DNA from: Gemmatimonadota bacterium
GTDB lineage: Bacteria > JAAXHH01
Assembly: GCA_026702745.1 (NCBI GenBank)
Contig: JAPPBT010000019.1
Location: 1 to 54,996, forward strand
DNA: 54,996 bases
Reading direction: 5' to 3'
Shown: piece after piece, positions 13,691 through 54,536 of the stretch
How positions within the stretch are numbered: the first letter of the stretch is position 1
Layout: every line of letters begins with the position of its first letter
The notes under the pieces: model-generated
The model's input: only the letters and a program-made list of their open reading frames with translations
Database searches by the model: none
Told to the model about the DNA's origin: nothing
Program-made: the position numbers and the translations under genes

Positions 13691-13765
13691 ACTTCCCGGT
13701 GGGGCACTTCCCGGCGGGACACATCCCGGCGGGACACATCCCGGCGGGACGCATCCCGGAGGGTC
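13691..13765 (+). repeat. Five 15-bp tandem repeats between the DUF362 and dioxygenase genes
   Basis: There are five contiguous units with consensus ACATCCCGGCGGGAC: 13691-13705, 13706-13720, 13721-13735, 13736-13750 and 13751-13765. The two central units are identical. The last unit has diverged to GCATCCCGGAGGGTC, and its GGAGGG is the Shine-Dalgarno of the ATG at 13770. In the DUF362 frame the units read as DFPVG, HFPAG, HIPAG, HIPAG and RIPEG. Confidence 0.95.
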
Positions 13766-13769
13766 TCCC

Positions 13770-14954
13770 ATGACCCAGGTGGAACCGGATCCCCTGTACG
13801 CCGCCTTGATGTCACCCGTATCACGTGACTTCACCCACGGTTTTCTTCCGCCTGAAGACCCCCTTTCACGCCTGCCAGAACCCTTCGAGGAATGGGAGCA
13901 GGCCGGCGGGGTGCTGCCCAAGCTGGCCCTGACGCGACATATCCGCCCCACGATAGAGGATCTTCCCCCCTTTCCGGGGAACAGGCTGGAAACCCTGGCC
14001 GAGCATGAACGGGCCATGAGCCTGTTGTCCTTCCTGGCCAACATGTACGTTTTCGCGCCTGATCACCCGGTGGCCACGGCCATCCCCCGGAACCTGGCCA
14101 CGGCCTGGCACGGCGTGGCCTGCCGCCTTGGACGCCCTCCCATGCTGACCTACGCCTCGCAGGTCATGTACAACTGGCGCAGGTTCGACCGACAGGGCCC
14201 CGTTGAAGTCGGCAATCTCCACATGATGCTGAACTTCCTCGGCGGGATGGACGAGGAGTGGTTTGTCACGATCCACGTGCATATCGAGGCCGTCTCCGGA
14301 CGCGCGCTCTCCGTGCTGATCCCCGGACAGGATGCGGTGTTGCGGGGCGATGCAGGCACTGTCGCCCGTTGCCTGGACGCCGTGACCGGGACGCTCCATG
14401 AAATGCGTTCGATCCTGGAGCGCATGACCGAACGGTGTGATCCCACTACCTACTATCACCGGGTCAGACCGTACATGTTCGGCTGGAAAAACAACCCCGA
14501 ATTGCCCGAAGGCATGGTATATTCGGGCGTGGAGGCCTATGGAGGAAAGCCCCGGCAGTTCCGCGGTGAAACCGGTGCGCAGAGCGCGGTCATCTACGCC
14601 GTGGACGGTTTTCTCGGGATCGAGCACGGTTACGATGAGATGCGGGCCTACCTGATGGAAATGCGCGACTACATGCCGATGCAGGACCGGCACTACATCG
14701 AAACGGTGGAAGCGGGACCGTCCGTCCGCAAGTTCGTCCTTGAACGAGGGGACAGTGAACCGGACCTGAAGAACGCCTACAACGCCGCGGTGGAAGCACT
14801 GTACGAATTCCGGCGGCTGCATATCGAGTACGCCGCCATGTACGTGCTCAAACCCGGTCAGCGGGAGAATAAGGGCCACGTGGGCACGGGCGGCACGCCC
14901 TTTACGGTCTATTTGAAAAAGCACATCGACGAAACTCTCGCGCACCGTATCTAG
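13770..14954 (+). CDS. Indoleamine 2,3-dioxygenase family heme protein
   Basis: This 394-residue protein aligns along its length with IDO enzymes, which open the indole ring of tryptophan to give N-formylkynurenine. Visible matches are RDFTHGFLP near the start, EPFEEWEQAGGVLPKL, the distal-pocket segment PPMLTYASQVMYNWRR, RVRPYMFGWKNNPELPEGMV, and the C-terminal GTGGTPF loop. By comparison with human IDO1, His351 is the proximal heme ligand (human H346), Arg233 corresponds to R231, Tyr228-Tyr229 replace F226-F227, and Thr268 replaces S263. Retention of the heme His, Arg and GTGGT argues for an active dioxygenase, but the pocket changes may alter the substrate. No kynureninase or formamidase gene is in the window. 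The ATG follows GGAGGG in the last upstream repeat unit. Confidence 0.9.
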   Translation: MTQVEPDPLYAALMSPVSRDFTHGFLPPEDPLSRLPEPFEEWEQAGGVLPKLALTRHIRPTIEDLPPFPGNRLETLAEHERAMSLLSFLANMYVFAPDHPVATAIPRNLATAWHGVACRLGRPPMLTYASQVMYNWRRFDRQGPVEVGNLHMMLNFLGGMDEEWFVTIHVHIEAVSGRALSVLIPGQDAVLRGDAGTVARCLDAVTGTLHEMRSILERMTERCDPTTYYHRVRPYMFGWKNNPELPEGMVYSGVEAYGGKPRQFRGETGAQSAVIYAVDGFLGIEHGYDEMRAYLMEMRDYMPMQDRHYIETVEAGPSVRKFVLERGDSEPDLKNAYNAAVEALYEFRRLHIEYAAMYVLKPGQRENKGHVGTGGTPFTVYLKKHIDETLAHRI

Positions 14955-14975
14955 CCGGTACGAAACCGAAAACCG

Positions 14976-15004
14976 TTGCCCTCAATGGCGCTTTCCGTTA
15001 AATT
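14976..15004 (+). promoter_or_regulatory. Predicted promoter of ispH
   Basis: TTGCCC (14976-14981), a 17-bp spacer and TAAATT (14999-15004) lie 38 bp before the ispH ATG. This suggests ispH has its own transcript in addition to any read-through from the dioxygenase gene. Confidence 0.45.
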
Positions 15005-15042
15005 GGTATACCGGTAAAGGCCATATCCACAAGGGCTTAGCG

Positions 15043-16299
15043 ATGGCGCGCCAGTTCGACATACCCAGTTACTACAAGAGTGAAATCACCTCCCGGATCA
15101 AGCAGGGCCGGCGGCTGGTTGATCCCAAGAAGAAGGACCTGTCGCCTTCCATCCTGGATTTCGGCGGCGTACGGTTCATTTTCGCACGGCATTTCGGCTT
15201 CTGCTACGGCGTGGAAAACGCCATCGAGATCGTGTACAAGACGCTGGAGGAAAACCCGGACAAGCGGATCTTCCTGCTCAGCGAGATGATCCACAATCCG
15301 AACGTCAATACCGACCTGCAGTCCAGGGGCATCCAGTTTATCCATACCACGCTCGGCGAACAGCTCATTCCCTGGGATGAACTGACCCGGGACGACCTGG
15401 TCGTCGTCCCCGCCTTCGGCACCACGGTGGAGATCAAGGAAATGCTGACCCGCCGCGGGATCGACTTCTGCACCTACGATACGACCTGCCCCTTCGTCGA
15501 GAAAGTCTGGACCCGGGGCGGCCAGATCGGCCAGCAGGGGTTCACGGTCGTCATTCACGGCAAGCCCCGGCACGAGGAGACGCGCGCGACTTTCTCTCAC
15601 AGCGTCCAGCAGGCCCCGACCGTCGTGGTTCGGAACCGGGAGGAGACCCTCATCCTCGCCGATATCATCACGGGAAAGGTCGACCGGGCACGTTTTTTTG
15701 ATGTATTCGGCGAAAACTGCTCGGAGGGGTTCGATCCGGAAATCCATCTGAACCGGGTCGGCGTGATCAACCAGACCACGATGCTCGCCAGCGAGACCCA
15801 CGAGATCGCGCGGCTGATCAGGGAAGCGCTGGAGGAACGGTACGGCCCCGAGCGCATATCCGATCACTTCGCCGATACCTCCGACACCCTGTGCTACGCG
15901 AGTAACGAGAACCAGAACGCCACCTACGCCATGATCGAGAAGGGGGCGGACGTCGCCCTCGTGGTCGGCGGCTACAACTCTTCCAACACCTCCCATCTGG
16001 TGGAGCTTTGCGAGGAGACGATCAGCACCTTCTTCATCAACAGCAGCAAGGACATCCTGTCGGACCGGCAGATCCGCCACTTCGACCTGGAATCCAAGTC
16101 GATCGTCGCAACCATCGACTGGCTGCCGGACACCCGGCCCGTCGATATCATCCTGACCTGCGGCGCGTCCTGCCCCGATATCATGCTGGACAACGTATTG
16201 CTGCGCATCCTTTCTTTCTTCCCCGACGCGCCCCCGGTAGTGGAAGTCCTCGCCGAATACGAGCATTCGGTCCGCCAGCCCGTCGTTTCCGCCTCGTAA
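15043..16299 (+). CDS. ispH: 4-hydroxy-3-methylbut-2-enyl diphosphate reductase (long type)
   Basis: This 418-residue protein performs the last step of the MEP isoprenoid pathway, reducing HMBPP to IPP and DMAPP with a 4Fe-4S cluster. The three cluster cysteines are C54 (HFGFCYGVENAI), C149 (YDTTCPFVEKVW) and C284 (DTLCYASNENQ). The GGYNSSNTSHL motif binds substrate diphosphate. At 418 residues it is about 100 longer than the E. coli enzyme. The N-terminal extension (first ~40 residues) and internal insertions resemble the cyanobacterial/plant form, which typically relies on ferredoxin. The extra C-terminal CGASCPD (C373, C377) aligns with the GASAPD segment of the short enzymes and is not a cluster ligand there. 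An AAGGG lies 8 bases before the ATG. Confidence 0.95.
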   Translation: MARQFDIPSYYKSEITSRIKQGRRLVDPKKKDLSPSILDFGGVRFIFARHFGFCYGVENAIEIVYKTLEENPDKRIFLLSEMIHNPNVNTDLQSRGIQFIHTTLGEQLIPWDELTRDDLVVVPAFGTTVEIKEMLTRRGIDFCTYDTTCPFVEKVWTRGGQIGQQGFTVVIHGKPRHEETRATFSHSVQQAPTVVVRNREETLILADIITGKVDRARFFDVFGENCSEGFDPEIHLNRVGVINQTTMLASETHEIARLIREALEERYGPERISDHFADTSDTLCYASNENQNATYAMIEKGADVALVVGGYNSSNTSHLVELCEETISTFFINSSKDILSDRQIRHFDLESKSIVATIDWLPDTRPVDIILTCGASCPDIMLDNVLLRILSFFPDAPPVVEVLAEYEHSVRQPVVSAS

Positions 16300-16316
16300 A
16301 TCGCCCAGGAAGTGCC

Positions 16317-17183
16317 ATGCAGATCGGAGTCAGTTCATACAGTTACAGCCGGCTGGTCCGTAACGGCGAGATGACGGAATTCGACGCCATCCGCAAGACG
16401 GCGGAACTCGGATTCGACGTGATCGAGTTCTCTTCGCTGCACCCGCCCGAAGGCGAATCGTTCGAACAGTACGCTCCCGACGTGCGCGCGGCCTGCGATA
16501 AGGCGGGTCTACCTATCGCCAACTACACGGTCGGAGCGGATTTCATCAATGGAAGCGGGGGGGACGTTCAACTCGAAGTGGAGCGGGTGAAGGACGAGGT
16601 GCGCATCGCTCATCTGCTTGGGGCGCCCGGCATGCGCCACGACGCCACGAGGGGGTTTCCCGAAAGCCGTCCCGGCGGGCGCTCATTCGATGATGCCCTG
16701 GCCGTCCTCGTCCCGGCGATCCGGGCGGTCACGGAGTTCGCGGCGGACCTGGGCGTCCGTACCATGGTGGAGAACCACGGGATGTTCTGCCAGGACAGCG
16801 AACGGGTGGAAAGACTGGTCAACGCCGTCAATCACGAAAACTTCGGCGTGCTCATCGACATCGGCAACTTCCTTTGCGTGGACGAACTGCCGGACGCCGC
16901 CGTGGGACGGTTGATCCCCTACGCCTTTCACGTCCACGCCAAGGACTTCCACACCCGGTCGGGAGCCGGCCCCGACCCCGGTGAGGGATGGTTCCGCACA
17001 CGGGGCGGCAACTATCTCAGGGGGGCTATCGTCGGCCACGGGGAAGTCCCCCTGGCGTCCTGCCTGCACGTCCTCTCACGCCACGGTTACGATGGCGTGC
17101 TTTCCATCGAATTCGAAGGACTCGAGCATCCCGTCGACGGTTGTCGCATCGGGCTCGACAATCTCAGGCGCTACCTGGGCTGA
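16317..17183 (+). CDS. Sugar phosphate isomerase/epimerase (TIM barrel, AP-endonuclease 2 family)
   Basis: This 288-residue protein begins MQIGVSSYSYSRLV and has the family features GFDVIEFSSL, TMVENHGMFC near residue 150 (metal-binding Glu and His), GVLIDIGNFL and HVHAKDFH (metal-binding His-x-His-x-Lys/Asp), ending with LSIEFEGLE. Members interconvert keto-sugars or inosose intermediates. It begins 17 bp after ispH, following AGGA. A longer open frame reaching back into ispH is not credible because those residues are out-of-frame ispH sequence. Its TGA stop lies inside the first unit of a 9-bp repeat array. With the Gfo/Idh and mmsA genes upstream it looks like part of a sugar or inositol pathway. 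Confidence 0.88.
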   Translation: MQIGVSSYSYSRLVRNGEMTEFDAIRKTAELGFDVIEFSSLHPPEGESFEQYAPDVRAACDKAGLPIANYTVGADFINGSGGDVQLEVERVKDEVRIAHLLGAPGMRHDATRGFPESRPGGRSFDDALAVLVPAIRAVTEFAADLGVRTMVENHGMFCQDSERVERLVNAVNHENFGVLIDIGNFLCVDELPDAAVGRLIPYAFHVHAKDFHTRSGAGPDPGEGWFRTRGGNYLRGAIVGHGEVPLASCLHVLSRHGYDGVLSIEFEGLEHPVDGCRIGLDNLRRYLG

Positions 17184-17218
17184 CCAGGCTGGCCAGGCTG
17201 ACCAGGCTGGCCAGGCTG
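17180..17218. repeat. 9-bp tandem array carrying stop codons
   Basis: Units alternate CTGACCAGG and CTGGCCAGG from 17180 (4.3 units, 18-bp higher-order period). The epimerase TGA (17181-17183) is in the first unit, and further in-frame TGAs recur at 17199 and 17217. Almost the whole 45-bp gap to the convergent gene consists of this array. Confidence 0.92.
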
Positions 17219-17228
17219 ACCGCACGGT

Positions 17229-18194: not shown

Positions 18195-18268
18195 GCGTAA
18201 TCCTCCGCTGTTCCCTGCCCGTGAATCCCTCTTTGACCGGTCACGCCTGCCGCCGGTTCACCCTGAAA

Positions 18269-20023: not shown

Positions 20024-20084
20024 GGCGGTATAGGTCAAAGTGCGCCCGTTTCCACGGGCAGTTCTGGGTCCCCGGTCGTTCCGG

Positions 20085-21555: not shown

Positions 21556-21574
21556 AGCTTTCAGTCCGGAGATG

Positions 21575-22697: not shown

Positions 22698-22740
22698 TCG
22701 TTGGCGTGTGTGCCTCTGGAGATCGGGCGTGCCCCGTTAA

Positions 22741-23295
22741 TCAACCTGGCCGGCGTTCAGCCTGGCCGGGGCTGCCTGGCCGGCGTTCAGCCTGGCCGGG
22801 GCTGCCGAGAGGGCCCGGTACCGGATGCTCGCCGCTTTCCCGGTCCGTGCTCTGCATCGCGTCGAGTTGTTCCTGGTGGGATTCGAGCAGAATCCTGAAT
22901 TTGACTTCGTAGTCCTTCCTCAACGTGGTGAGCGTGCCCAGTTCCCGCTTGATTTCGGCCACCTGGTTGTTCGCATCGGAGATCCAACGGTCCGCCTTGT
23001 TTTCCGCGTCTTTCAATACGTTCTCCGCTTCTTTCATGGCATTGGCTTTCATGTCGTGAATGACCCGCTGCGCGGACACGAGCGCGTCCTCGAGCAGTTT
23101 CCGCCTGCGGCCCACATCGGTCAACTCGGCGTCCATCTCCGCCATCCGGGCCCGCAGCGATTCGTTTTCCTTGGCGAGGTTTTCGAGCGCGCTGGCGGTG
23201 CTGTTCATAAACGCTTCCACTTCATCCATATCGTAACCGCTGACCCAGCGCGTCTTGAACTTCTGTTCTCGAATTTCCTCCGGGCTGATGTCCAT
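22741..23295 (-). CDS. divIVA: DivIVA-domain protein
   Basis: This 184-residue protein starts MDISPEEIREQKFKTRWVSGYD, followed by MDEVEAFM. This is the DivIVA N-terminal membrane-binding segment (normally ITPxDIxNxxFxxxxRGYDxxEVDxFL). A long coiled coil follows (residues ~35-150), with heptads such as LAKENESLRARMAEMDAEL. DivIVA binds curved membrane at cell poles and septa and organises division or polar growth. Its presence beside yggS and yggT fits the conserved division cluster. I start it at the ATG at 23295; a much longer open frame upstream is only the yggT gene read out of frame. The last 20 residues are two copies of SPGQAERRPG encoded by a perfect 30-bp duplication, directly before the stop. 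Confidence 0.9.
   Translation of the reverse strand: MDISPEEIREQKFKTRWVSGYDMDEVEAFMNSTASALENLAKENESLRARMAEMDAELTDVGRRRKLLEDALVSAQRVIHDMKANAMKEAENVLKDAENKADRWISDANNQVAEIKRELGTLTTLRKDYEVKFRILLESHQEQLDAMQSTDRESGEHPVPGPLGSPGQAERRPGSPGQAERRPG
22745..22804. repeat. Perfect 30-bp tandem duplication at the divIVA 3' end
   Basis: Two identical 30-bp units (22745-22774 and 22775-22804) each contain two CCTGGCCGG cores. They encode SPGQAERRPG twice at the C-terminus of DivIVA. The identity of the copies indicates a recent duplication. Confidence 0.95.
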
Positions 23296-23327
23296 GTATT
23301 CACCTCTGTTTCCTGGTCGCGCTCCCG

Positions 23328-24152: not shown

Positions 24153-24186
24153 GTCGGGTCCCGTTCAATACCGGGTCAACGGCGTG

Positions 24187-24876: not shown

Positions 24877-24907
24877 AAGATCAACCTCACCGAAAAACCA
24901 GTCTGCT

Positions 24908-24936: not shown

Positions 24937-25085
24937 CAGAAATCAGTAAACTTCGAGGTCGCGTAAGGAAACGAGATTCCGCCCCGTCCCTCCGACTGAT
25001 ACGAATGTGTTTACGCCGATGGAATCCATCCCGGACCGGTCGGCATGCGACCCGTGACAGTACCAATATTCGAAGGAGGGAAAGC

Positions 25086-27877: not shown

Positions 27878-27879
27878 GG

Positions 27880-29218: not shown

Positions 29219-30166
29219 CTACCGCAGGATGCGCTGATCGCTCAGGTCCTTGCCTCCGACCGTCTCCACGATACCAGCGCTCACGAAGGCGATTTGCTCC
29301 AGGCCCGCAATGGCGTTCACGATATGGTATTGCGTAGGCAGGTCCTGCCATTCCGCCCGGTGGAACCGCACCCTTCCCTGTCCTGAGCGCTGCGCTGTCA
29401 CCCTTCGGTTCGGGGTATCGGACGGGGTCATTACGGCGTATTCCGCATCGGCCACGTCCCATTGCCCGGTCCGTGGTATGTATTTGTAGTGCAGGGTTCC
29501 GTTAAGCGCGGTGCCATCCGTCCCGGCAACGGCTTCATCGGTGCCATCGGTCTCTACCGCGGCTTCATCGGCCGGCGCCGCTGCTTCATCGGCCGGCGCT
29601 GCAGCTTCATCGGTGCCATCGGTCTCTACTGTGGTTTCATCGGCCGGCGACGCGGGCGGTGTTTCCATTTCCGACAGGTACATTTCCATGAAGCGGAAAC
29701 CGAGCCAGTCGGCCGTGCACCGCGTCTCGCCGTTCTGCACGGACGGCGGCGGGATCGCGCAGTATATCTTCGAGAAACCGAGTTGTTCCCGCCCGGTAAG
29801 AATCGGATCGGCCAGGTTCTCCCACAACACCGCGAGGAAGGGACCGCGGGCACGGTCCCGTTTCCCCCTGTACTCGGCCGGGAAGCTCACGCCGAGGGTA
29901 TTGTAACCCCTTCCGGCCAGCCACTCGATTCCGGTCATATAGGAAACCGTCACGGTCACCACGGGATCTCCGGCCAGTCGGAACCCCATCGGCAGCAGGA
30001 CTTCTAGCTGTTCCGGCCGGGTCAGGAAACTCACGGAATACGAGGTAGTCCGCGGCGAGTGCTGACCGTCGAACCGGCGACCATCAGGTCCCTGGCGTGG
30101 ACCCGCGGCAGGCCCGAAATGGGTCGGCATCATGTACATGCGGCCTGGATGAATCTTGTAGGGCAT
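29219..30166 (-). CDS. Acetoacetate decarboxylase-like protein with repeat insertion
   Basis: This 315-residue protein has the ADC-family core: YSVSFLTRPEQLEVLLPMGFRL, a VTVSYMTGIEWLAGRGYNTLGV segment, LWENLADPILTGREQLGFSK near residue 120, and C-terminal HIVNAIAGLEQIAFVSAGIVET. K133 in GREQLGFSKIY aligns with the Schiff-base Lys115 of the clostridial decarboxylase, but the neighbouring Lys116 is Ile here and the preceding Pro is Ser. Loss of that pKa-shifting lysine suggests chemistry other than acetoacetate decarboxylation, such as aldolase or dehydratase reactions known for divergent members. An acidic, alanine-rich insertion of about 45 residues built of PADEAA and VETDGTDEA repeats splits the domain. 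Confidence 0.72.
   Translation of the reverse strand: MPYKIHPGRMYMMPTHFGPAAGPRQGPDGRRFDGQHSPRTTSYSVSFLTRPEQLEVLLPMGFRLAGDPVVTVTVSYMTGIEWLAGRGYNTLGVSFPAEYRGKRDRARGPFLAVLWENLADPILTGREQLGFSKIYCAIPPPSVQNGETRCTADWLGFRFMEMYLSEMETPPASPADETTVETDGTDEAAAPADEAAAPADEAAVETDGTDEAVAGTDGTALNGTLHYKYIPRTGQWDVADAEYAVMTPSDTPNRRVTAQRSGQGRVRFHRAEWQDLPTQYHIVNAIAGLEQIAFVSAGIVETVGGKDLSDQRILR
29532..29654. repeat. Mixed 21/30-bp in-frame repeat array
   Basis: GCTTCATCGG recurs at 29532, 29562, 29583 and 29604, and as GTTTCATCGG at 29634, giving periods of 30, 21, 21 and 30 bp. On the minus strand the units encode PADEAA and VETDGTDEA blocks inside the decarboxylase-like protein. All periods are multiples of three. 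Confidence 0.9.
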
Positions 30167-37254: not shown

Positions 37255-38571
37255 TTGGCCGAGGAACCACGCCGCGCACGCCGCCGACAGGTCATGTGGA
37301 AAACAATCAACAACATCGCGTACCGGCTTTACTTCGCGTACCGGAACCGGATGTCGCGCCGCGAAAACAGGCGGTGGGTAGTCCGGACTGCACTAACGCC
37401 GGGCCCGGAACCCAGGCCCGTGCTCTACGTGGCATGGGGACGGATCGGAGACGTGGTCCTGACCACCGGGCACCTCAAGCGGATGCGACGGTGGTTCCAC
37501 CCCAGTCCGATCTGGTTCCTGGGAAGATCCCGCGTAAGGCCGCTCGTCGAACTGCACGTGGACGCCTTCCTGCCGTTCCCCGAACCAGCCGCACGCCGGA
37601 CCGGGGCTGATGGCCGGGACACTGGCCGGACCGGGGCTGACGGCCGGAACACTGGCCGGACCGGGGCTGACGGTGCCCCGGCCGCAATGCTCGAAGGGAT
37701 CGCGAACCGATCGTTCCGGTGCGTCATCGCGGACATCCACACGTTCTACGGCGGACTCTTCGCCCTGGATAGCGTGCTTTCCACCGTGCGGGCGGACCGC
37801 AAGTTCGTCTACGAAGGATACCGCCTCGGCGAGGACCTGGCGCCGGAACGGCCTTATCCGGCCGGGTACGAGATCGTGCCTAAATACGAGGAAAGAAAGG
37901 GGGTGGGCAAGGACGACGCCCCATGCCACTTACTTCATCACAACGCCCATTACCTCCGTAGCGTGCTGGAGCACTGTGGGGTCGAAACGGTTGGCGGGGA
38001 GGCGTGGCGGCCGGAACTGGATCACGTCGGATCGGGAACCGACGCTTGCCGCCAGTACGGGGTCGAACCCGGGGAGTACGTGGCGTGGCAACCCTTCAGC
38101 GACAATCGCAGGAAGGACTACCCGCTTGCACGATGGGCGGAGGCGATCCGCGCATTCCCAGAAATGCAGTTTGTCGCGCTGGTCGAGCCCGGCAGGGCCG
38201 ACGAAGTGAGCCGGACGGCGCCGCCCGGCGTTCGCGTGGTCGCTACGTCGCTAACCGGGGTGATGAAGTTGATACGGGAAGCGCGCCTGTACGTCGGACT
38301 GGATTCGGGGCTAAGCCATATCTCGACAGTGATGGGAACACCCACGGTCTGTGTCTGTCCCGACAGCCACCTCGGATATTTCTTTCCCTATCCGGAGAGC
38401 TACGGTTTCAAGAATCTGCAAACGGTCTCTCATCCGGACTACCTGTCGTGCCGTGGCTGTTTCATGACCTGCCGGCACGAACCTCTCACGTCAACGGTCA
38501 CCCGGGGCGCTCTCTGCCTTCGTACGTTGCCTTCCCAACTGGTCATCGAGGCTATCCGGTCCGCATTGTAG
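37255..38571 (+). CDS. Glycosyltransferase family 9 (heptosyltransferase-like)
   Basis: This protein of about 438 residues has two GT-B-type lobes. The N-lobe has RPVLYVAWGRIGDVVLTTGHLKRMRRWF, equivalent to the GDxxxxTP motif of LPS heptosyltransferases. The C-lobe has YVAWQPFSDNRRKDYPLARWAEAI and LYVGLDSGLSHISTVMGTPTVCV, the ADP-heptose-binding signature. A late C-x-x-C-x3-C cluster (SCRGCFMTC) is unusual. Family 9 transfers heptose to lipid A-core, so an LPS or related glycan role is inferred. I use the TTG at 37255, 8 bases after GAGG; the ATG at 37294 is an alternative. A hydrophilic loop between lobes is three degenerate copies of a 10-residue unit such as RTGADGRDTG. Confidence 0.82.
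   Translation: MAEEPRRARRRQVMWKTINNIAYRLYFAYRNRMSRRENRRWVVRTALTPGPEPRPVLYVAWGRIGDVVLTTGHLKRMRRWFHPSPIWFLGRSRVRPLVELHVDAFLPFPEPAARRTGADGRDTGRTGADGRNTGRTGADGAPAAMLEGIANRSFRCVIADIHTFYGGLFALDSVLSTVRADRKFVYEGYRLGEDLAPERPYPAGYEIVPKYEERKGVGKDDAPCHLLHHNAHYLRSVLEHCGVETVGGEAWRPELDHVGSGTDACRQYGVEPGEYVAWQPFSDNRRKDYPLARWAEAIRAFPEMQFVALVEPGRADEVSRTAPPGVRVVATSLTGVMKLIREARLYVGLDSGLSHISTVMGTPTVCVCPDSHLGYFFPYPESYGFKNLQTVSHPDYLSCRGCFMTCRHEPLTSTVTRGALCLRTLPSQLVIEAIRSAL
37591..37680. repeat. 30-bp in-frame tandem array in the GT9 gene
   Basis: Three units of 30 bp start at 37591, 37621 and 37651, with the core CCGGGGCTGA at 37601, 37631 and 37661. They encode RTGADGR(D/N)TG repeats. The outer ends of the array have diverged. 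Confidence 0.92.
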
Positions 38572-38600: not shown

Positions 38601-40604
38601 TCACAGTTCGGCGGTCGATCTGAGTTCGACCCGTGCGGGGCGGACCAGCGCGATGAGATCCTCGATATCGAACTCGGCCAGCAGTCCGAAGCAGAACAGG
38701 GACGAGAGGGATTCGTACCGTCCGGGTTCATCGATCAACCGGTGCAGACTGGCAAGGCCGCGATGCAGTATGACTTCATGGAACGGCCGGCTGCAAAGGG
38801 ACGCCGCCATCAGGGCGATCACCGAGGACAGGGGACCTTGTGCCGCGACAACCAGACGGGCCGCGACGCCCGGACGGGCCGCGACACCTGGATCGGCCGC
38901 GACGTCCGGACCGGCCGCGACACCCGGACGGGCCGATCCCATGTGATGCATGACCGCCGCGAGCTGTGCGACCTGGAGCCCCAGCATCCGGCCTCCGTTC
39001 GATGCCAGCATCATCGTCCACTGATGGGGCGCTTTGCCCAGTCCGCAAGCCCCCTGCATGACCACTTCCACCGTCGTCGCCGTGGCCTTGTCCCGTATGG
39101 CTTCCTCTACCAGGGCTTTCGTTCCCTTCCGCCCTTCATCCGCCAGGATCAGGCGCATATTTCCGTTGCTTTGGTCCGTGGGAACGGTGGTCACGGCGGG
39201 TAGCTCCCACCCATCGCGCAAGTGGTAACAGGGCCATTCCAGCCGGCGGCCGTCCCTCGCGTGCGGCGCCTGGCCGGTCACACGCTCAACGGGTAAGGGC
39301 CGGTACCGCAGCAGGAACTTCAGCCGTTCCCTGCCCGCCGCCTGCCACCGGGAGAAAGCGGCGGGATCCTCCGGCGGCTTCCGGCGTTCCAGGCCACGGG
39401 CCAGGGACCGGGCCAGGGAGACGAAATCGGCGTTGCCCGTCGGTGTTCCAACCCACAGTGCTTCTTCGGTGCGGACTTCGTCTTCCGAGGGAATCTCTCC
39501 GTCGCGGGACGGCACGCCAGGCCGGCCGTCCAGGAAATGCCGGTTCAAAAACCCGTAAAATCGCTCCCGGTGTTCCCGTTCGTAGTTGTGGGTGCCGGGA
39601 TCCAGGTTGTTGTGGAATGCAAAGGCGTCCGGACTTCCGAGTGCGGCGTACAGCGGTCGAACCGGTTCATAGACCGAGGGCCGAGCCCGGGCGGTCTGGA
39701 AGCAACAGTCGTCATACTCGTTATACATGAGCAGGGCAGGACGCGGTGCAAGCAGAGCCGTGAGCATGGGATAATCGGCCGTCGCGGCGAGGTCCGACGC
39801 GTTCTGTTCGATGTCACCCCGGTCGGCCCGGTGATTAACCCGGCTGTCCAGGCCGATGTAACCGGCGTTGGGCGCGGCGAGTCGCACCCTCGTGTCCAGG
39901 GCGGCGAGCACGATCGTCTGCCAGCCTCCGCCGGACAGTCCGGTCACGGCGATACGTTCCGGGTCGACCTGTCCCAGGTCCAGCAGCACCTCCAGCGCGC
40001 GGCACATGACCAGGTAGAACACGGCTATGCCGGCCACACCGCACAGATCCAGATAGCTCGCGTTGTTGTGCTGGTAGCCCGGGCCCTGCAGTTCCCCGAA
40101 GCTCAGCCACTCCGGATTCAGCGCGTAAACGCCCCGGCGGGCCAGGTTGACGCAACGTATCTGCTTGTAGTCCACCGCCTTGCCCGGCGGGCCCACATGC
40201 CCGTTCAGATTCAACACGCCCGGCGCCGGAACGGCTGGATCATCCGGTTCGTAAAGGAGGGCCGGGACGACCAGACCGGGATGATCCGACTCGTCCGGTT
40301 GACCCGACTGACCTGAATGACCCGGCTGACCCGGCTGACCGGGCAGCGCGCGGTAGGTCAGCTTGCGAATCCGGTATCCCTTGTCGGTTTCGATCACGTC
40401 GCCCCACTCGACCTCGGTCGCACCGTTTCTCCACGCATCGGGCACGCCTTTGAAAATCACCTCTTCCAGCACGGTCCGGCGCAACTTGCCGGCTTCTTCT
40501 TCCCAGGTAGCGGCGTCGGGGAGTTCAAATCGGGGGACGCGGCTCAGCAAGTAAGCCTTCAGCGTTTCCACCGTGTGCGATGACCGATCCAGGTCACTCA
40601 ACAT
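38601..40604 (-). CDS. Two-domain alpha/beta hydrolase (acetylxylan esterase-like)
   Basis: This 667-residue protein has an N-terminal esterase domain. The nucleophile is in RIAVTGLSGGGWQT (GxSxG), an acidic residue is in ALLMYNEYDDCCF, and the His is in NNLDPGTHNYERE. It resembles the large alpha/beta hydrolases annotated as acetylxylan esterase or dienelactone-hydrolase-like. The C-terminal ~270 residues look like a second, decayed hydrolase domain, because VVAAQGPLSS stands where GxSxG would be. No signal peptide is seen, so it should be cytoplasmic. Two repeat arrays interrupt it: PGQ-type triplets near residue 90 and PGVAA hexapeptides near residue 570. It overlaps the transglutaminase stop by 7 bp. 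The substrate is unknown. Confidence 0.78.
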   Translation of the reverse strand: MLSDLDRSSHTVETLKAYLLSRVPRFELPDAATWEEEAGKLRRTVLEEVIFKGVPDAWRNGATEVEWGDVIETDKGYRIRKLTYRALPGQPGQPGHSGQSGQPDESDHPGLVVPALLYEPDDPAVPAPGVLNLNGHVGPPGKAVDYKQIRCVNLARRGVYALNPEWLSFGELQGPGYQHNNASYLDLCGVAGIAVFYLVMCRALEVLLDLGQVDPERIAVTGLSGGGWQTIVLAALDTRVRLAAPNAGYIGLDSRVNHRADRGDIEQNASDLAATADYPMLTALLAPRPALLMYNEYDDCCFQTARARPSVYEPVRPLYAALGSPDAFAFHNNLDPGTHNYEREHRERFYGFLNRHFLDGRPGVPSRDGEIPSEDEVRTEEALWVGTPTGNADFVSLARSLARGLERRKPPEDPAAFSRWQAAGRERLKFLLRYRPLPVERVTGQAPHARDGRRLEWPCYHLRDGWELPAVTTVPTDQSNGNMRLILADEGRKGTKALVEEAIRDKATATTVEVVMQGACGLGKAPHQWTMMLASNGGRMLGLQVAQLAAVMHHMGSARPGVAAGPDVAADPGVAARPGVAARLVVAAQGPLSSVIALMAASLCSRPFHEVILHRGLASLHRLIDEPGRYESLSSLFCFGLLAEFDIEDLIALVRPARVELRSTAEL
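38842..38931. repeat. Five 18-bp in-frame repeats in the hydrolase gene
   Basis: Units of 18 bp start at 38842, 38860, 38878, 38896 and 38914, with consensus GCCGCGACACCCGGACGG. On the minus strand they encode a hexapeptide of the form (R/D/G)P(G/D)VAA in the second domain of the hydrolase. Confidence 0.93.
40281..40343. repeat. Seven degenerate 9-bp in-frame repeats in the hydrolase gene
   Basis: Units of 9 bp run from 40281, becoming more regular toward CTGACCCGG (40326-40334). They encode PGQ/SGQ/PGH-type triplets on the minus strand. The unit differs by one base from CTGACCAGG in the intergenic array at 17180. Confidence 0.88.
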
Positions 40605-45673: not shown

Positions 45674-46620
45674 ACGATATCGTTTTGCTGCTTCTCGCAT
45701 ATTCGACGATGATCTTTGCCGTGTCCCTGCTCGGCGGGAAGCTTTCGGCCATCGTCACCCTGACGCACACCCGGACGCATCTGGTCATGAGTTTCGTGGC
45801 GGGATTTCTTCTTGGCGTCGCCATGTACCATCTGTTGTTGCACAGTCTCGAAGATATCCCAGGTCCGCATGCCGGTGAAATCGCCGTGGGTTGCGTGGTA
45901 CTGGGCGTCATCATGATGATCGTACTGTTGCGGTTCTTCAGGTTCCATCAGCACGAATTCGGCCAGGATCCGGTCCAGGTATCGGATCATGATGGCCGGC
46001 ACGACCACCCGGACTCGCACGACCACCCGGACCCGCACGACCACCCGGGCCATCAGGGCCAGCCGGACCAGCACGGCCATCAGGCTGCGACAGTCGTCAA
46101 TCCCCGAAGCGTGTTCGGCGTCGCCACGGGCCTCGGCCTGCATACCATCACCGAGGGGATCGCCCTCGGCGCAAGCATGCGAATGGGACTGATTCACGAC
46201 GAGGGAGCGGTCCTCGTCGGACTGGGCGTGTTGTTGGCGATCATGCTGCATAAACCATTGGACGCGTACTCCATCATCGGATTGATGCGGGTATCCGGTT
46301 ACGCGAACCGGACCTGCACGCTGACCAATTTCGGTTTCGCCCTGCTCTGTCCGCTCATCACCGTATTGACCTTTTTCGGCGTCGGCCTGTTGAGCCATTT
46401 CAACGAACTGCACGTCGTGGGGTACGTCATGGCCTTCGCCGCCGGTGTTTTCCTGTGCATTGCTTTGAGCGACCTGCTTCCCGAGATTCAGTTTCACAGC
46501 CACGACCGCGGAATCCTCGCCCTGGTTTTTCTCATCGGGGTTGGACTCGCGTACGCCCTATTCCACTTCGAATCCGAGACCCTGCACGGGCTGGAGACGC
46601 TGGATAACCATAACCATTAG
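45670..46620 (+). CDS. ZIP-family metal transporter with His-rich loop
   Basis: This 316-residue protein has about eight membrane spans. The core metal-site helices read GLGLHTITEGIALGASM (TM4, with the His and Glu of the ZIP binuclear site) and LAIMLHKPLDAYSIIG (TM5). A cytoplasmic loop of HDHPD-type repeats near residue 110 is the usual ZIP metal-sensing segment, here built from 18-bp repeats. ZIP proteins move zinc, iron or manganese into the cytoplasm, although some close relatives act in the other direction. The ATGA overlap with the permease gene supports coordinate action. I start at 45670; a longer frame upstream would lie inside the permease gene. Confidence 0.88.
   Translation: MNDIVLLLLAYSTMIFAVSLLGGKLSAIVTLTHTRTHLVMSFVAGFLLGVAMYHLLLHSLEDIPGPHAGEIAVGCVVLGVIMMIVLLRFFRFHQHEFGQDPVQVSDHDGRHDHPDSHDHPDPHDHPGHQGQPDQHGHQAATVVNPRSVFGVATGLGLHTITEGIALGASMRMGLIHDEGAVLVGLGVLLAIMLHKPLDAYSIIGLMRVSGYANRTCTLTNFGFALLCPLITVLTFFGVGLLSHFNELHVVGYVMAFAAGVFLCIALSDLLPEIQFHSHDRGILALVFLIGVGLAYALFHFESETLHGLETLDNHNH
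46000..46053. repeat. Three 18-bp in-frame repeats encoding a His-rich loop
   Basis: Units of 18 bp start at 46000, 46018 and 46036, with core CACGACCACCCGGAC. They encode HDHPDS, HDHPDP and HDHPGH. Here the repeated peptide has an obvious possible role in metal binding. Confidence 0.92.
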
Positions 46621-46647
46621 CATCCCCCCGCACCGCGAGCAGCGCCC

Positions 46648-48867: not shown

Positions 48868-48899
48868 AGCAGGCAGGTTTTTCAGGTCATCGATCCTGC

Positions 48900-51083
48900 T
48901 CAGGACGTCTGATCGGTATGGGAAGCGGCGGAGGTTTCCGGAGCGGCCTCGGTCGCGGACAGCGGTAACCTGATAGCCATTTCGGTGTACTGGCCCGGTT
49001 CCGAATCCACCTCGATCGAACCACCGTGTTCGCGAACGATGTCGTTAGACAGCGCCAGGCCGAGTCCGGTGCCTTCATCGGTCGGCTTGGTGGTGAAGAA
49101 GGGGTTGAAGATCTTGTCGATGACATGAGGAGGGATCCCCTTGCCGTTGTCCTTGATCCGGACGACGATCTGATCATCCTCGCGGCGGGTGGACAACCAG
49201 ATGCCGGGTACGTAACCGGATTCCGTATCCGGATCTTCCCGCTTCTCGTTGGTGGCGTGACAGGCGTTGTTTACCATGTTCAGGAATACCCGTGCCATTT
49301 CCTGGGAAACAATTTCGATCTCGCTCAGATCTGATTCGAAATCTTCGTGGATTTCGAGTTGAAAGTCTGCGTTCGATGCCCGGGCGGCGTGGTAGGCGAG
49401 ACGGGCGTGTTCTTCCAGCAGGGCATTGACGTCCGTCGACTGTTTGTCGCCCGATCCGCGGCCCATCTGGAGCATATCGCGCACGATGCGGTTGGCCCGT
49501 TCGCCATGCTCCCGGATCCGGCGCAGGTTTTCCGTGAGGTCACCGCCGATCTCCTGGATCAGTCCATCCTGCTCCTCGTCGATCGTACCGCCGGCTGAGG
49601 GCAGTTCTTCCTTCATTTCCTCGAGGAGCTCCTCCGAGGACTCCGCGAAGTTCTTGACGAAGTTCAACGGGTTCTGGATCTCGTGCGCCACACCCGCGGT
49701 GAGTTCGCCCAGGGCCGCCAGTTTCTCCCGCATGACGATCTGGTCCTGCGCCTTTTGCAACTCCGCCAGGGTGCTCTCCAACTCGTCGTTCTTTCCGCGC
49801 AGTTCCTCGGCCAGCTTCTCCACGAGATTCAACCTCTGTGCTTCGATCGAGTGAAGCCTGAAGACTTCCAGCGCGGCGGCCATGTCCGCCACTTCGTCGC
49901 GGCCGTCCAGTTCAACTTTCTGCTTCAGATCTCCCCCCGCCATGCGCCGCATGTGTTCCGAAAGAAACCCTAATCGGCGCAGTAGCACCTTGCCGACGAA
50001 CAACCACGCGATCAGCAAAGCGCCGACCAGACTGACCGCGTTCAATGCGAGGAGTAGCTGTCTGCCCACCTGGATCGTCTGCGTCGAAGCAACCGTGGCG
50101 AGTTCGGTACTCTCCTGCGCCGAATTTACGAGGCTTTCCACCTCGGCCACCAGTTCAACGGACAGATCCCGGTTGTTTTCGATCAAGGCGCGTTGCTGGG
50201 CGATCAGGTCCAGGTCCTCACCGCGAATCTCGAAGATCATCCCCTGGCCGTTGCCCAGTTCGAAGAGCTGGGTGAATACCGGTTCGAGCCGCTGCCGCAG
50301 GGGCGCCGTACCCAGGCCCGCGAGGCTTCGCTCCACGCCGCCGTCGGCCGACTCGAAACGCTCCAGCAGGGGTTCCAGCCGATCGGCATCGGACAGGTTG
50401 AAGACGTTGGAAAGGATTCGGGTACTCACGGTCGCCTCGGCCTGCAGATCGGCCAGGTGCCGGTAACGTTGCAGTTCCTCTTCGGAGAGGTATTCCTCGC
50501 GGGGCGCCACCGGCTCATCGATATCCCGGTATCCGGTCACCGTGTAGAACAGTTGGTTGTCGATCGCCGGGATCAGAATGCCCGTCAGTTCGAACTGCAG
50601 CCGTTCCAGTTCGAGACGCAGCTGCCGGCTCTGGTCCTGGAGCACGAAGCGCCTGGCCACGGACTCCTCGATCATTTCGATATTCGACATCAGCGTGCTG
50701 CCGGCTTCCCGGATGCGTTGAAAGCGTTCGTCCTCCATGCCATAGCCGGCGATGGCTTCCAGCTGCACCGCGAAACTCTCTCGTTCTTCGGCGATGCTCG
50801 CGGTTACGGCTTCAAAGGTTTCGGGAGTTTCCGCGGCCGTCAGGCGCGGCGCCGCCGCCGCCAGCGTCCCGCTCCGCTGCGCCACGCCGAAGGCCGCGGC
50901 GATCTCGGGTACGGCGACCTCGTTTACTTCTCGCTGGGCCTCGCCAACCTCGTTGAAGGCGAACCACGCCACCATACTGGCTAACATGGTAAGCGCAACC
51001 GCTGCACCAATGCCCAGATAGAGCTGCCCCGATATGCGGGATGGGCCCTTGTCGTATAGCCACAACAGCCACTGCTTGATCAT
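48900..51083 (-). CDS. Membrane sensor histidine kinase
   Basis: This 727-residue protein has a first membrane span at about residues 20-45 (LGIGAAVALTMLASMVAWFAF), a helical periplasmic sensor of about 300 residues, and a second span near 345-370 (LLLALNAVSLVGALLIAWLFVG). A HAMP domain (MRRMAGGDLKQKVELDGRDEVADMAAAL), a coiled coil and the kinase core follow. The phospho-accepting His is H467 in LTAGVAHEIQNPLNF. The ATPase domain has N-box FLNMVNNACHATNEK, G1 DNGKGIP and G2 GTGLGLALS. Its start overlaps the stop of the binding-protein gene (ATGA). The only receiver encoded nearby is fused to the SpoIIE phosphatase, the likely target. The all-helical sensor suggests a four-helix or binding-protein-docking input. 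Confidence 0.92.
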   Translation of the reverse strand: MIKQWLLWLYDKGPSRISGQLYLGIGAAVALTMLASMVAWFAFNEVGEAQREVNEVAVPEIAAAFGVAQRSGTLAAAAPRLTAAETPETFEAVTASIAEERESFAVQLEAIAGYGMEDERFQRIREAGSTLMSNIEMIEESVARRFVLQDQSRQLRLELERLQFELTGILIPAIDNQLFYTVTGYRDIDEPVAPREEYLSEEELQRYRHLADLQAEATVSTRILSNVFNLSDADRLEPLLERFESADGGVERSLAGLGTAPLRQRLEPVFTQLFELGNGQGMIFEIRGEDLDLIAQQRALIENNRDLSVELVAEVESLVNSAQESTELATVASTQTIQVGRQLLLALNAVSLVGALLIAWLFVGKVLLRRLGFLSEHMRRMAGGDLKQKVELDGRDEVADMAAALEVFRLHSIEAQRLNLVEKLAEELRGKNDELESTLAELQKAQDQIVMREKLAALGELTAGVAHEIQNPLNFVKNFAESSEELLEEMKEELPSAGGTIDEEQDGLIQEIGGDLTENLRRIREHGERANRIVRDMLQMGRGSGDKQSTDVNALLEEHARLAYHAARASNADFQLEIHEDFESDLSEIEIVSQEMARVFLNMVNNACHATNEKREDPDTESGYVPGIWLSTRREDDQIVVRIKDNGKGIPPHVIDKIFNPFFTTKPTDEGTGLGLALSNDIVREHGGSIEVDSEPGQYTEMAIRLPLSATEAAPETSAASHTDQTS

Positions 51084-52363
51084 GGCATCACGTCCCGGAG
51101 GGTACGGATGGGATGGTAGCGGCCATCCTGACCGATCACTGTGAGGAAAACCGCGTCCGAACCCTGGTTGTCCCCTTCGCCAAACTCGAGACGAAGTCCG
51201 CCCAGGTCGATCATTCCCGCACGATTCAGGCTCTCCATGAGGCAGGATCGTCTTACGTCGGGACCGCAGCCCTCGAGGGCGGTGATGGTCAGCTTGCCGG
51301 CGAGGTATCCTTCGAAGGAAACGAATCCGGGGTTCGTGCCCGGCGCGTACGCGGAGAGCGCTCTGCGGTACTGGACGGCGATGGCGATGTTTCCGGCCGC
51401 AGGAAAGGGCACCACCTGGGAGACCAGGACACCGCGTCCGTCGGGACCCAGTTCACCAGCCAGCGCATTGCTCCCGACGAATGAAATCGTTGCGAAAACG
51501 GGATTGAATCCCACGTGCCGCGCCCACGAAATGAGCGTGGCAACCGGCTGGTAGGCCCCGATCACCACGACTGCGTCCGGTTTTCCCTGTTGCAGATCGA
51601 GCAGGCCGGCCTTGATCGCGGTGGTGTTCCTGGGATACACACCGATGGCTACGGGATCGAGCTGCCGGCGCTCCAGCGCGCGTCGTACGCCTCGGTATCC
51701 GACCCGGCCAAAGGAGTCGTTCTGGTACATCACGCCGATGCGCGTGATGCCGAGGTCGCGCGAAAGGCGGTCGACGATTTCCTCGGTCTCCTGGAAATAG
51801 GAGGCGCGCAGGTTTATGACGCCCGTATCCGTGTTATCACGTAAAAAAATCGCGCCGGTGAATGGCGCGATATAGGGTACGCCGGCCTCCGAGGTAATGG
51901 GAACGGCCGAGCGGGAGGTGGGTGTGCCAACGGCGCCGATCAGCGCGAAAACCCCCTCCTCCTCGATCAGTTTCCGGGTGTTCGCGATAGCGGCTTCAGG
52001 TTCATAGGCGTCATCGAGCGTGATCAGCTCGAGCCGTCTTCCGTGTACGCCGCCCCGGCGGTTCGCTTCCTGAAAGGCCGCCTCGATCCCGACATTCATG
52101 TTCCGCCCGAGTTCACGGGCCGGTCCGCTGAAGGCCGCGGACTGACCGAAGAGAATGCGTTCGGCCGTCACACCGGGTTCGGTCGTCGCTTCGGACTCGG
52201 TCGTGGCTTCGGACTCAGTCGTGGCACCGAGCTCGGTTGTGGCACCGGGCTCTTCGACCTGGAAGGCGTTCGCACCGCTGTTTTCAGGGGATAAAGCGGG
52301 AGAGAACGCCGTCGCACAAAGGGCGAGCAGTACGACCGCCCAATGGCCGCGCGTTCGTCTCAT
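51080..52363 (-). CDS. Branched-chain amino acid-type ABC binding protein (Peripla_BP_6)
   Basis: This 427-residue protein has a signal peptide (VVLLALCATAFSPALS), then a Thr/Glu-rich linker of ATTE repeats, and a type I periplasmic binding fold starting at ERILFGQSAAFSGPARELGRNMNVGIEAAFQEANRRGGVHG. The LIV-type features LELITLDDAYEP, LIGAVGTPTSRSAVPI and RIGVMYQNDSFGRVGYRG are clear. No ABC permease or ATPase accompanies it. Instead it is locked between an RsbW-like gene (ATGA overlap) and a histidine kinase gene (ATGA overlap). I infer a signalling role, presenting an amino acid or similar ligand to the kinase periplasmic domain. Confidence 0.88.
   Translation of the reverse strand: MRRTRGHWAVVLLALCATAFSPALSPENSGANAFQVEEPGATTELGATTESEATTESEATTEPGVTAERILFGQSAAFSGPARELGRNMNVGIEAAFQEANRRGGVHGRRLELITLDDAYEPEAAIANTRKLIEEEGVFALIGAVGTPTSRSAVPITSEAGVPYIAPFTGAIFLRDNTDTGVINLRASYFQETEEIVDRLSRDLGITRIGVMYQNDSFGRVGYRGVRRALERRQLDPVAIGVYPRNTTAIKAGLLDLQQGKPDAVVVIGAYQPVATLISWARHVGFNPVFATISFVGSNALAGELGPDGRGVLVSQVVPFPAAGNIAIAVQYRRALSAYAPGTNPGFVSFEGYLAGKLTITALEGCGPDVRRSCLMESLNRAGMIDLGGLRLEFGEGDNQGSDAVFLTVIGQDGRYHPIRTLRDVMP
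52161..52250. repeat. Five 18-bp in-frame repeats in the binding-protein linker
   Basis: Units of 18 bp start at 52161, 52179, 52197, 52215 and 52233, for example TCGGTCGTGGCTTCGGAC. On the minus strand they encode a hexapeptide of the form (S/L/P)(E/G)(A/V)T(T/A)E between signal peptide and ligand domain. The two central units are nearly identical. Confidence 0.93.
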
Positions 52364-52785: not shown

Positions 52786-52787
52786 GA

Positions 52788-53951: not shown

Positions 53952-54044
53952 TTCACCCCCGGAAACCGCCGCGGCCGTATCCCGTTTCAAGTCTCGCCAT
54001 GACGCCTGGACGCTGCGACGCGAATAGTAAACGGGAAGAGGCGT

Positions 54045-54383
54045 TTACCGGCCGATCTTATCCACCGCTTCGGCCTGGGAATCGTGAATGGATATGATCT
54101 TGTCAAAACCGCTGATTTCGAAGACTTCCCGGATCGGATCAGAAAGCGAGCACAACGCGAACGCGGCATTCCGCTTCTGAAGCAGTCGAGCGATCAGCAG
54201 GATGACCCTGAGGCCCGCACTGCTTATGTAGGACAAGGTACTGAAATCCAGCAGCACCTTGCTGTCGTCTTCACCGATGGCGCCATTGAGCGCGTCTTCG
54301 AACTCCCGCGCGTTGGCACCGTCGATTCGACCTTCAACCTTCGCAATTAGTACTTCGTTTGCTCGGTCGACACTGATCTCCAT
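54045..54383 (-). CDS. STAS-domain anti-sigma factor antagonist (RsbV-like)
   Basis: This 112-residue single STAS domain begins MEISVDRANEVLIAKVEGRID. The phospho-acceptor serine is most likely S55 in LSYISSAGLRVILL, by comparison with SpoIIAA Ser58 in DSSGLG. The rest, FALCSLSDPIREVFEISGFDKIISIHDSQAEAV, matches RsbV/SpoIIAA. It would be phosphorylated by the RsbW-like kinase and dephosphorylated by the receiver-phosphatase encoded next, 93 bp downstream. It is the first gene of the five-gene operon. AAAGGGGG lies about 10 bases before the ATG. Confidence 0.94.
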   Translation of the reverse strand: MEISVDRANEVLIAKVEGRIDGANAREFEDALNGAIGEDDSKVLLDFSTLSYISSAGLRVILLIARLLQKRNAAFALCSLSDPIREVFEISGFDKIISIHDSQAEAVDKIGR

Positions 54384-54404
54384 GAAACCAACCCCCTTTA
54401 CAGG

Positions 54405-54433
54405 TTTATAAAAATGCCATGTTCGGCAAAATC
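54405..54433 (-). promoter_or_regulatory. Possible promoter of the signalling operon
   Basis: On the minus strand there is a good -10, TATAAA (54405-54410), 17 bp from a poor -35, GATTTT (54428-54433). This leaves a leader of about 15 bases before the STAS gene. The weak -35 could reflect use of an alternative sigma factor. Confidence 0.35.
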
Positions 54434-54516
54434 AGCAATCGGTACTCCATAGGTTATCCCTGGTTTTCACGATTCCGTACCCACCTGGCCGGCCTTGACC
54501 GGTCAGCGAATCGAAC

Positions 54517-54536
54517 GGCCTGGCCTGGCCTGGTCC
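54517..54536. repeat. Short 5-bp tandem array downstream of the PhyH gene
   Basis: GGCCT is repeated three times and followed by GGTCC (54517-54536), in the non-coding gap after the dioxygenase stop. It is the only array in the window whose period is not a multiple of three, and it is the weakest of the set. Confidence 0.6.

Follow-up and report, generated by a model that had tools for sequence, protein, structure and literature searches.

What generates and maintains the ten short tandem arrays dispersed over this stretch of DNA? The window analysed here, the whole stretch of 54,996 nucleotides, belongs to genome G000, from which a sample of 486 kb out of 3.88 Mb was studied; most relatives were covered only where they are collinear with the window. 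A sequence-only reading had listed ten arrays and their unit lengths, and Tandem Repeats Finder (TRF) recovered both, with nine arrays scoring at least 50 and the tenth only 34. Genes were called with a purpose-made codon-usage caller, not a published tool. Within the window there was no Rfam match at gathering score and no tRNA. We give a probability of roughly two-thirds to the reading that the arrays are minisatellites (VNTRs) arising by local, microhomology-guided slippage and filtered by reading frame.

Three arrays are intergenic and touch gene 3' ends, as had been described. Array 1 (13691..13766, plus strand) consists of 4.7 copies of a 15-bp unit (TCCCGGCGGGACACA; TRF score 105). The stop of a DUF362 gene lies upstream at 13680, and the array occupies the leader of the downstream IDO gene as far as its ATG at 13770. 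Across seven mapped relatives, the orthologous interval measures 31 bp in G001 and G008, 44 bp in G010, 46 bp in G005, 71 bp in G007 and 78 bp in G004, while the site in G006 spans 63 bp with a different 15-bp unit. Array 2 (17178..17222, unstranded), with a 9/18-bp unit (GGCTGACCAGGCTGGCCA; score 88), covers the stop of a TIM-barrel gene (called at 16317-17183, plus strand) and ends 6 bp short of the 3' end of a GFO/IDH gene (17229-18194, minus strand). Its first one or two units are kept in G001, G006, G008 and G010, where other sequence follows, and G005 has 9 bp. Array 10 (54512..54536, unstranded), 3.4 copies of the 5-bp unit GGCCT near the 3' end of a gene called at 54551-54958 (minus strand), is too weak to stand alone at its score of 34. 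The site is 104 bp long in G002, where about eight units of 10 bp are present, and at most 3 bp in the other nine mapped relatives.

The remaining seven arrays were correctly assigned to reading frames. In the gene called at 22741-23295 (minus strand), which encodes a DivIVA-domain protein, array 3 (22741..22806, minus strand; score 124) repeats an exact 30-bp unit 2.1 times in the C-terminal tail; the Pfam DivIVA match stops short of the array, whose length is 0-60 bp in eight mapped relatives. Array 4 (29509..29653, minus strand) has 21/30-bp units with scores of 84, 68 and 93 in an acetoacetate-decarboxylase-like frame (29219-30166, minus strand), where it corresponds to about residues 172-220, just past the Pfam ADC match (residues 13-178). 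Array 5 (37595..37673, plus strand; score 144) holds 2.6 copies of a 30-bp unit in a glycosyltransferase-9 protein whose gene was called at 37294-38571 (plus strand). Across 11 relatives, these two arrays range from 43 to 148 bp and from 13 to 151 bp, respectively, and every difference is a multiple of 3. One esterase-like protein (38601-40604, minus strand) hosts both array 6 (38842..38935, minus strand; 18/36-bp unit, the 18-bp unit present 5.2 times; scores 125 and 139) and array 7 (40281..40344, minus strand; scores 54 for a 9-bp and 58 for an 18-bp unit). Array 6 measures 22 bp in 8/11 relatives and 55-58 bp in G006, G008 and G010. The 9-bp unit of array 7 translates into Gly-Gln-Pro-like triplets (PGQPGHSGQSGQPDESDHPG), and its length varies from 1 to 64 bp in steps of 9 in 11/11 relatives. 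Array 8 (45996..46085, plus strand; score 99), 4.5 copies of an 18-bp unit, forms a His/Asp-rich stretch within the Pfam Zip match of a transporter whose gene was called at 45670-46620 (plus strand); the array's lengths in seven mapped relatives, 18-90 bp, are all multiples of 9. Array 9 (52161..52252, minus strand; score 87), 4.6 copies of an 18-bp unit, lies in an ABC-type substrate-binding protein (51080-52363, minus strand), after the N-terminus and before the Peripla_BP_6 domain (residues 73-414). It is a single unit (20 bp) in 9/10 mapped relatives, among them G010, the sister of G008, and 110 bp in G008, with steps of 18; the array, long in both G000 and G008, has likely expanded separately in these two genomes.

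The window had been called unusually repeat-rich, which is correct against shuffled sequence but not against its own genome. Its nine merged arrays at a TRF score of at least 50 amount to 16.4 per 100 kb, compared with 0.36 in Markov shuffles of the window (all Markov shuffles gave 0.6 or less) and 26.9 in the 432 kb of the G000 sample outside it. The window is thus below its own genome's average. Counting arrays with at least three copies, the genus has 148 in 1842 kb from 12 genomes (8.0 per 100 kb), a density 5.3-fold that of sister genera (6 in 393 kb, 1.5 per 100 kb; p=3.8e-7) and 13.4-fold that of six GC-rich controls (3 in 500 kb, 0.6 per 100 kb; p=4.4e-12). These control records comprise five Pseudomonadota and one Actinomycetota, namely five plasmids or chromids and one record of chromosome size that is deposited as a plasmid. 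The proposal of a lineage-wide trait is partly supported: it survives against sister genera and controls, but six genomes of other lineages, contributing 20-40 kb each (180 kb), reach 5.0 per 100 kb (the genus 1.6-fold denser, p=0.21, not significant), and the sister-order genome G014, with 19.8 arrays per 100 kb at the score-50 cut-off, is as dense as the genus. High minisatellite density is not unique to this genus. Two loci consisting of N runs (L092, L093) were removed before counting, and two Planctomycetes loci (L008, L009; 21.7 kb, 3 arrays) were excluded from later tallies.

Array length changes readily between relatives, as had been predicted. In a comparison between congeners, each species represented by one genome, 25/40 and 35/47 coding arrays (60/87 in total) differ in length between G005 and G001, against 23/392 and 17/464 matched random coding segments (40/856). 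Random non-coding segments also often differ (133/238 and 169/268), and over all array classes the differences are exact unit multiples in just 22/65 and 29/94; arrays lacking mappable flanks (9/92 and 7/116) were excluded. The arrays consist of head-to-tail copies of units of about 10-60 bp, and whole-unit steps in copy number separate related genomes at array 7 (by 9) and array 9 (by 18), as in VNTRs. Between congeners we found neither the control-level density nor the invariant, conserved lengths that the sequence-only reading had named as speaking against it.

Reading frame filters which changes are kept. The G000 sample is 85% coding and holds 125 arrays, of which 53 are coding and 54 non-coding (more than 90% of the array inside or outside called genes, respectively). 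The unit length is a multiple of 3 in 51/53 coding arrays and in 22/54 non-coding ones, and 33/34 exact duplications in coding sequence keep the frame. The suggestion that arrays are tolerated where the frame is kept is borne out: inside genes almost only whole-codon changes survive, and between genes any length does. The expected excess over codon-preserving controls was likewise found, with 57 arrays in coding sequences compared with 27-35 after synonymous resampling and 2-7 after codon-order shuffling. Synonymous resampling thus removes roughly 40-50% of coding arrays, which means that the coding DNA contains more repetition than its protein product calls for.

The units themselves appear to originate locally. 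In 67/94 arrays (26/33 and 41/61), the unit resembles local sequence in a shorter ortholog, beating all 20 random segments; the other 27/94 have no recognisable seed there. Junction homology of at least 3 bp accompanies 53/89 exact two-copy duplications, compared with 7.3% of simulated blunt duplications. We infer that slippage is the generating step and that the short direct repeats predate the duplication. A replicating strand would slip between two short direct repeats, turning a local ABA into ABABA and leaving a copy of roughly 9-40 bp in tandem. Later slippage events would then add or remove units and spread one unit's changes through the array, and the frame filter would let any length persist between genes and almost only whole codons within them. 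Only four exact duplications could be set beside an ortholog that is shorter by exactly one unit. Junction homology is missing from one of them; for the remaining three, the ortholog retains an intact A word at one end at most (letters kept at the two ends: 4/4 and 2/4, 2/3 and 3/3, 0/1 and 1/1), so these orthologs do not bear out a pre-existing ABA, and junction homology may partly represent decayed third copies.

It is also possible, if somewhat doubtful, that slippage proceeds at an ordinary rate and that its products persist because selection is weak in a host-associated lineage. MutS, MutL, RecJ, ExoVII and Pol I are present in the window's genome, and the similar density in the six genomes of other lineages fits such a view. 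However, genomes of about 3.2-4.5 Mb whose samples are 85-94% coding do not resemble strong decay, and repeats with 1-6 bp units show no excess over controls in G000, G005 and G001, where they are rare, at 0.6-0.9 per 100 kb compared with 2.2 in controls. This scarcity is not genus-wide, as the other two congener groups have 2.3 and 3.2 per 100 kb. In a search of the same three genomes for units of 12-400 bp, 92/95 exact duplications fell between 12 and 30 bp. Few 1-6 bp repeats together with 12-30 bp duplications are what would be expected if mismatch repair works, and MutS and MutL domains are present. A distinct mutational regime is unlikely. In it, some step of replication, perhaps the processing of flaps or Okazaki fragments, would generate tandem duplications of 12-30 bp unusually often with mismatch repair intact, and would thereby feed new linkers and collagen-like repeats in a bacterium that is probably associated with sponges.

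Several candidate causes in DNA repair were rejected. No loss of MutS, MutL, RecJ, ExoVII or the Pol I 5' nuclease was seen in the window's genome. A mismatch-repair mutator was set aside, with MutS_V (a single weaker match in G004) and the MutL domain PF01119 each in 12/12 genus genomes. So was a FEN1/rad27-type mutator: the Pol I 5'-nuclease domain (5_3_exonuc_N), which we take to be the bacterial counterpart of rad27 (FEN1), occurs in 15/16 genomes of the phylum and 11/12 of the genus. It is missing only from G004, a bin of 520 contigs that also has no DNA_pol_A match. The residues that matter for this nuclease are known, and its motifs are kept in the one protein examined, the aligned G005 protein. 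Duplications made by NHEJ were discarded with Ku in 0/16 genomes; the control search did find Ku in Bacillus subtilis.

Selection on proteins could instead drive the arrays, the genus favouring collagen-like (Gly-X-Y) and other low-complexity segments with DNA repeats following, which we regard as quite improbable. Pfam Collagen (PF01391) matches occur in 12/12 genus genomes and 0/4 other genomes of the phylum, at 7-45 per genus genome (45 in the window's genome; for three genomes at most 150 candidates were scored, and their counts are lower bounds). Moreover, in 33/69 coding arrays whose period is a multiple of 9, one of the frames has Gly in every third position, compared with about 12 after unit shuffling. 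Against this, 54/125 arrays are non-coding in a mostly coding sample, synonymous resampling takes away roughly 40-50% of the coding arrays, periods are multiples of 9 in only 42/125, and some Collagen matches fall in short frames or contain stops. A Gly-X-Y-like 9-bp unit recurs in only a minority of arrays, and a scan of 20 window proteins gave no match to Pfam Collagen.

The shared GC-rich cores reported in the sequence-only reading are real but a minority signal. The word GCGGACCA occurs in 7/125 arrays of the G000 sample (0.23 expected), GCGGACCA/GGCGGACC-type words recur above expectation across unrelated G000 arrays, and the related words CGGACCAG and GACCAGGC are among those enriched in coding arrays of G001 or G005. 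A mobile short-repeat family that seeds new sites and then expands, as had been suggested, is nevertheless very improbable: units match local sequence in 67/94 shorter orthologs, no 8-letter word extends beyond 8/125 arrays, and the words enriched in non-coding arrays differ among G000, G001 and G005. With no dominant unit, a REP/MITE-like repeat was rejected as the main cause. Assembly artefacts are hardly credible, since 33/34 coding exact duplications are in frame, unlike assembly errors, and unit-step differences recur at the same sites in separate genomes, even though the named relatives are metagenome bins, the genus genomes are mostly in many contigs and short-read assembly can mis-size repeats.

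The genus is useful in several ways. Many minisatellites have been born recently in its ordinary genes under a frame filter, and about a dozen related genomes are available for fixing ancestral states. It also permits testing how 10-40 bp tandem duplications arise in bacteria with mismatch repair retained. Array loci could serve for strain marking, and differences in protein length among such genomes should be read with caution, as they often reflect repeat turnover. In open-licence literature, we found no paper on tandem repeats of Latescibacterota and, among the matches listed, no description of this lineage's repeats.

Known systems resemble these arrays in part. In the accessible text of one study, yeast rad27 (FEN1) mutants form ABA to ABABA duplications with A of 1-21 bp (3-12 bp in an earlier report), and simple repeats are destabilised too (PMC5677150). 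The likeness lies in insertions with flanking short direct repeats and units of tens of bp (PMC5677150, same text). In contrast, the Pol I 5'-nuclease domain is retained here in nearly all genomes, and simple repeats are not enriched in G000, G005 and G001. Pasteuria ramosa, in the available portion of its description, shows a radiation of collagen-like proteins and, as here, numerous PF01391 matches in a bacterium (PMC13233619), whereas here Gly-X-Y units make up only the smaller part of the arrays.

The closest counterparts share tandem units of about 9-40 bp that vary in copy number between relatives and remain in frame within genes. These are bacterial VNTRs, the minisatellites used in MLVA typing. 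The arrays studied here differ in being 13-fold denser than in the six GC-rich controls (at least three copies) and in occurring, along the genome as sampled, in genes of ordinary metabolism. As a whole, the repeats are real and quickly changing; they resemble a dense set of minisatellites of the familiar type rather than a novel class of element.

Tandem Repeats Finder (TRF) matched all ten short tandem arrays that the sequence-only reading had described in the window, so that observation is correct, with one weak member (the tenth, score 34). Nine merged arrays reach a score of at least 50, or 16.4 per 100 kb, whereas shuffling the window with a Markov model leaves 0.36 per 100 kb. Seven of the arrays lie within reading frames and three are intergenic. 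The arrays are fast-changing, frame-filtered minisatellites, and they are a real feature of all twelve genomes of the genus. The window corresponds to contig C19 in the 102-contig, 3.88-Mb genome G000, and eleven congeneric genomes were used beside it for comparison within the genus. The named contigs nearest to the window come from bins labeled Candidatus Latescibacterota or Gemmatimonadetes, with isolate names that resemble those of sponge samples. We infer a sponge association of the genus.

The orthologous intervals of the ten arrays differ widely in length between relatives. For array 7 (40281-40344), they change by 9 bp or multiples of it, with lengths of 1, 10, 28, 37, 46, 55 or 64 bp. 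Array 9 (52161-52252) spans 92 bp in the window, 110 bp in congener G008, and 20 bp in nine of ten mapped relatives. Because G010, the tree sister of G008, has 20 bp at this site, the simplest history is that the same 18-bp stretch expanded twice separately; the alternative history is one of loss in G010 and others. The array 9 protein has a second match (38-39% identity) to a paralogous substrate-binding-protein frame in G003, G004, G005, G007, G010 and G011, with one or two stop codons in the matched stretch in these six congeners. Array 1 (13691-13766), whose 15-bp unit holds the inverted repeat CCCGGCGGG, fills the leader of an indoleamine 2,3-dioxygenase gene. A 15-bp step accounts for leader lengths of 31, 46 and 76 bp, but not for the 44, 63, 71 and 78 bp of four other relatives. 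Array 8 (45996-46085) encodes a His/Asp-rich stretch within a ZIP match, and its copy number may therefore change metal binding.

Congeners G005 and G001 (91% protein identity across tree genes) were compared over 460 kb of collinear sequence. Mapped arrays were of unequal length in 65 of 83 and 94 of 109 cases, and no more than 35 of the 83 and 37 of the 109 had an ortholog that itself contained an array (TRF score at least 30). Only 22 of the 65 and 29 of the 94 differences are exact unit multiples, indicating that turnover is not purely whole-unit. Unequal lengths were found for 25/40 and 35/47 coding arrays, against 23/392 and 17/464 random matched coding segments. The corresponding values are 30/33 and 39/40 against 133/238 and 169/268 for non-coding arrays, and 10/10 and 20/22 against 56/86 and 107/197 for edge arrays.

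The 125 arrays of the G000 sample comprise 54 non-coding, 53 coding and 18 edge arrays, in sequence that is 85% coding. All but two of the 53 coding arrays (51) have a period divisible by 3, versus 22 of 54 non-coding ones. The called genes of this sample (416 kb) contain 57 arrays, 2-7 of which are left when codon order is shuffled. Redrawing synonymous codons leaves 27-35, so that about half of the signal in genes resides in the protein, while the remainder points to recent DNA copying.

The GC-rich core proposed to be shared among the units is real for a subset of arrays. The top over-represented 8-letter words in G000 were GCGGACCA, present in 7 of the 125 arrays where 0.23 would be expected, and GGCGGACC, present in 8 where 0.45 would be expected. 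Their opposite strand is readable as GGT CCG CC(T), or Gly-Pro-Pro, and collagen-like triplets account for part of the core. When three genomes were pooled, arrays with periods that are multiples of 9 were Gly-X-Y-like in 33 of 69 coding cases (about 12 in unit-shuffled copies) and 13 of 39 non-coding cases (about 4). Each of the twelve genomes in the genus has 7-45 Pfam Collagen matches (with scoring limited to 150 candidates in three of them), and four genomes from elsewhere in the phylum have none. Adjoining open frames carry such matches, for example G008:C19:55151-69633 and G005:C5:39718-58835. The collagen-like proteins of the genus look like a radiation. Latescibacterota bins from sponges are described in PMC12993501, in the main text of which the word "collagen" does not occur.

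The density of arrays in the genus is above that of sister genera and controls. At the loose cut-off of score 50, the G000 sample outside the window has 26.9 per 100 kb (116 in 432 kb), higher than the window itself, and congeners G001 and G005 have 25.4 and 19.8. Densities outside the genus are comparable, with 19.8 in G014 (sister family), 27.5 in G031 and 20.0 in G038; the latter two, from other lineages, are represented by 40 kb each at 63-64% GC. A strict count of arrays with at least three copies and score 70 gave, per 100 kb, 12.7 in the window, 10.4 in the remainder of G000, 10.1 in G001, 8.3 in G008, 8.1 in G002, 6.2 in both G005 and G010, 4.6 in G006, and 1.7-3.9 in G003, G004, G007, G009 and G011. 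The sister genera G012, G013, G014 and G015 have 0.8, 3.2, 0.8 and 0. Pooled, the genus has 8.0 (148 in 1842 kb), compared with 1.5 in the sister genera (6 in 393 kb; p=3.8e-7) and 0.6 in the GC-rich controls (3 in 500 kb; p=4.4e-12). The difference from six genomes of other lineages, at 5.0 (9 in 180 kb), is not significant (p=0.21). The genus has 6.1 exact duplications per 100 kb (unit length 12-400 bp), compared with 2.8 in sister genera (p=0.009), 0.8 in controls (p=7.7e-8) and 4.4 in the six genomes of other lineages (p=0.52). The expectation that such a density far exceeds that of a bacterial chromosome thus holds against sister genera and controls, but not against the six other-lineage genomes.

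Loss of a repair gene does not explain the load for any of the genes checked. In the window's genome, MutS and MutL are represented by their domains, Pol I by both its 5' nuclease and its polymerase, and RecJ and ExoVII are present too; Ku is absent from all 16 genomes searched. Alignment with a solved Pol I indicates that the 5'-nuclease motifs are kept in G005 Pol I, at residues we take to be catalytic. The high load may reflect slippage of the ordinary kind under weak selection, or a bias linked to replication.

The units appear to be of local origin. In 26 of 33 and 41 of 61 cases where the other genome was at least 0.7 unit shorter, none of 20 random segments resembled the unit as closely as the shorter ortholog interval did. 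Exact duplications in G000, G005 and G001 have units of 12-30 bp in 92 of 95 cases and none above 60 bp. These genomes have few repeats of 1-6 bp (0.6-0.9 per 100 kb, versus 2.3 and 3.2 in other congeners and 2.2 in controls). Extra junction homology of at least 3 bp was found in 53 of 89 exact two-copy duplications, compared with 7.3% of simulated blunt copies. An unduplicated ortholog was comparable for only four duplications, and in none of the three with homology was the whole word found at both ends; that direct repeats were in place before duplication is therefore a step that we infer. Taken together, the arrays belong to a known type of sequence that is dense here, and are no new element; in form, the duplications of the genus are similar to the insertions that turn ABA into ABABA in rad27 mutants of yeast (PMC5677150).
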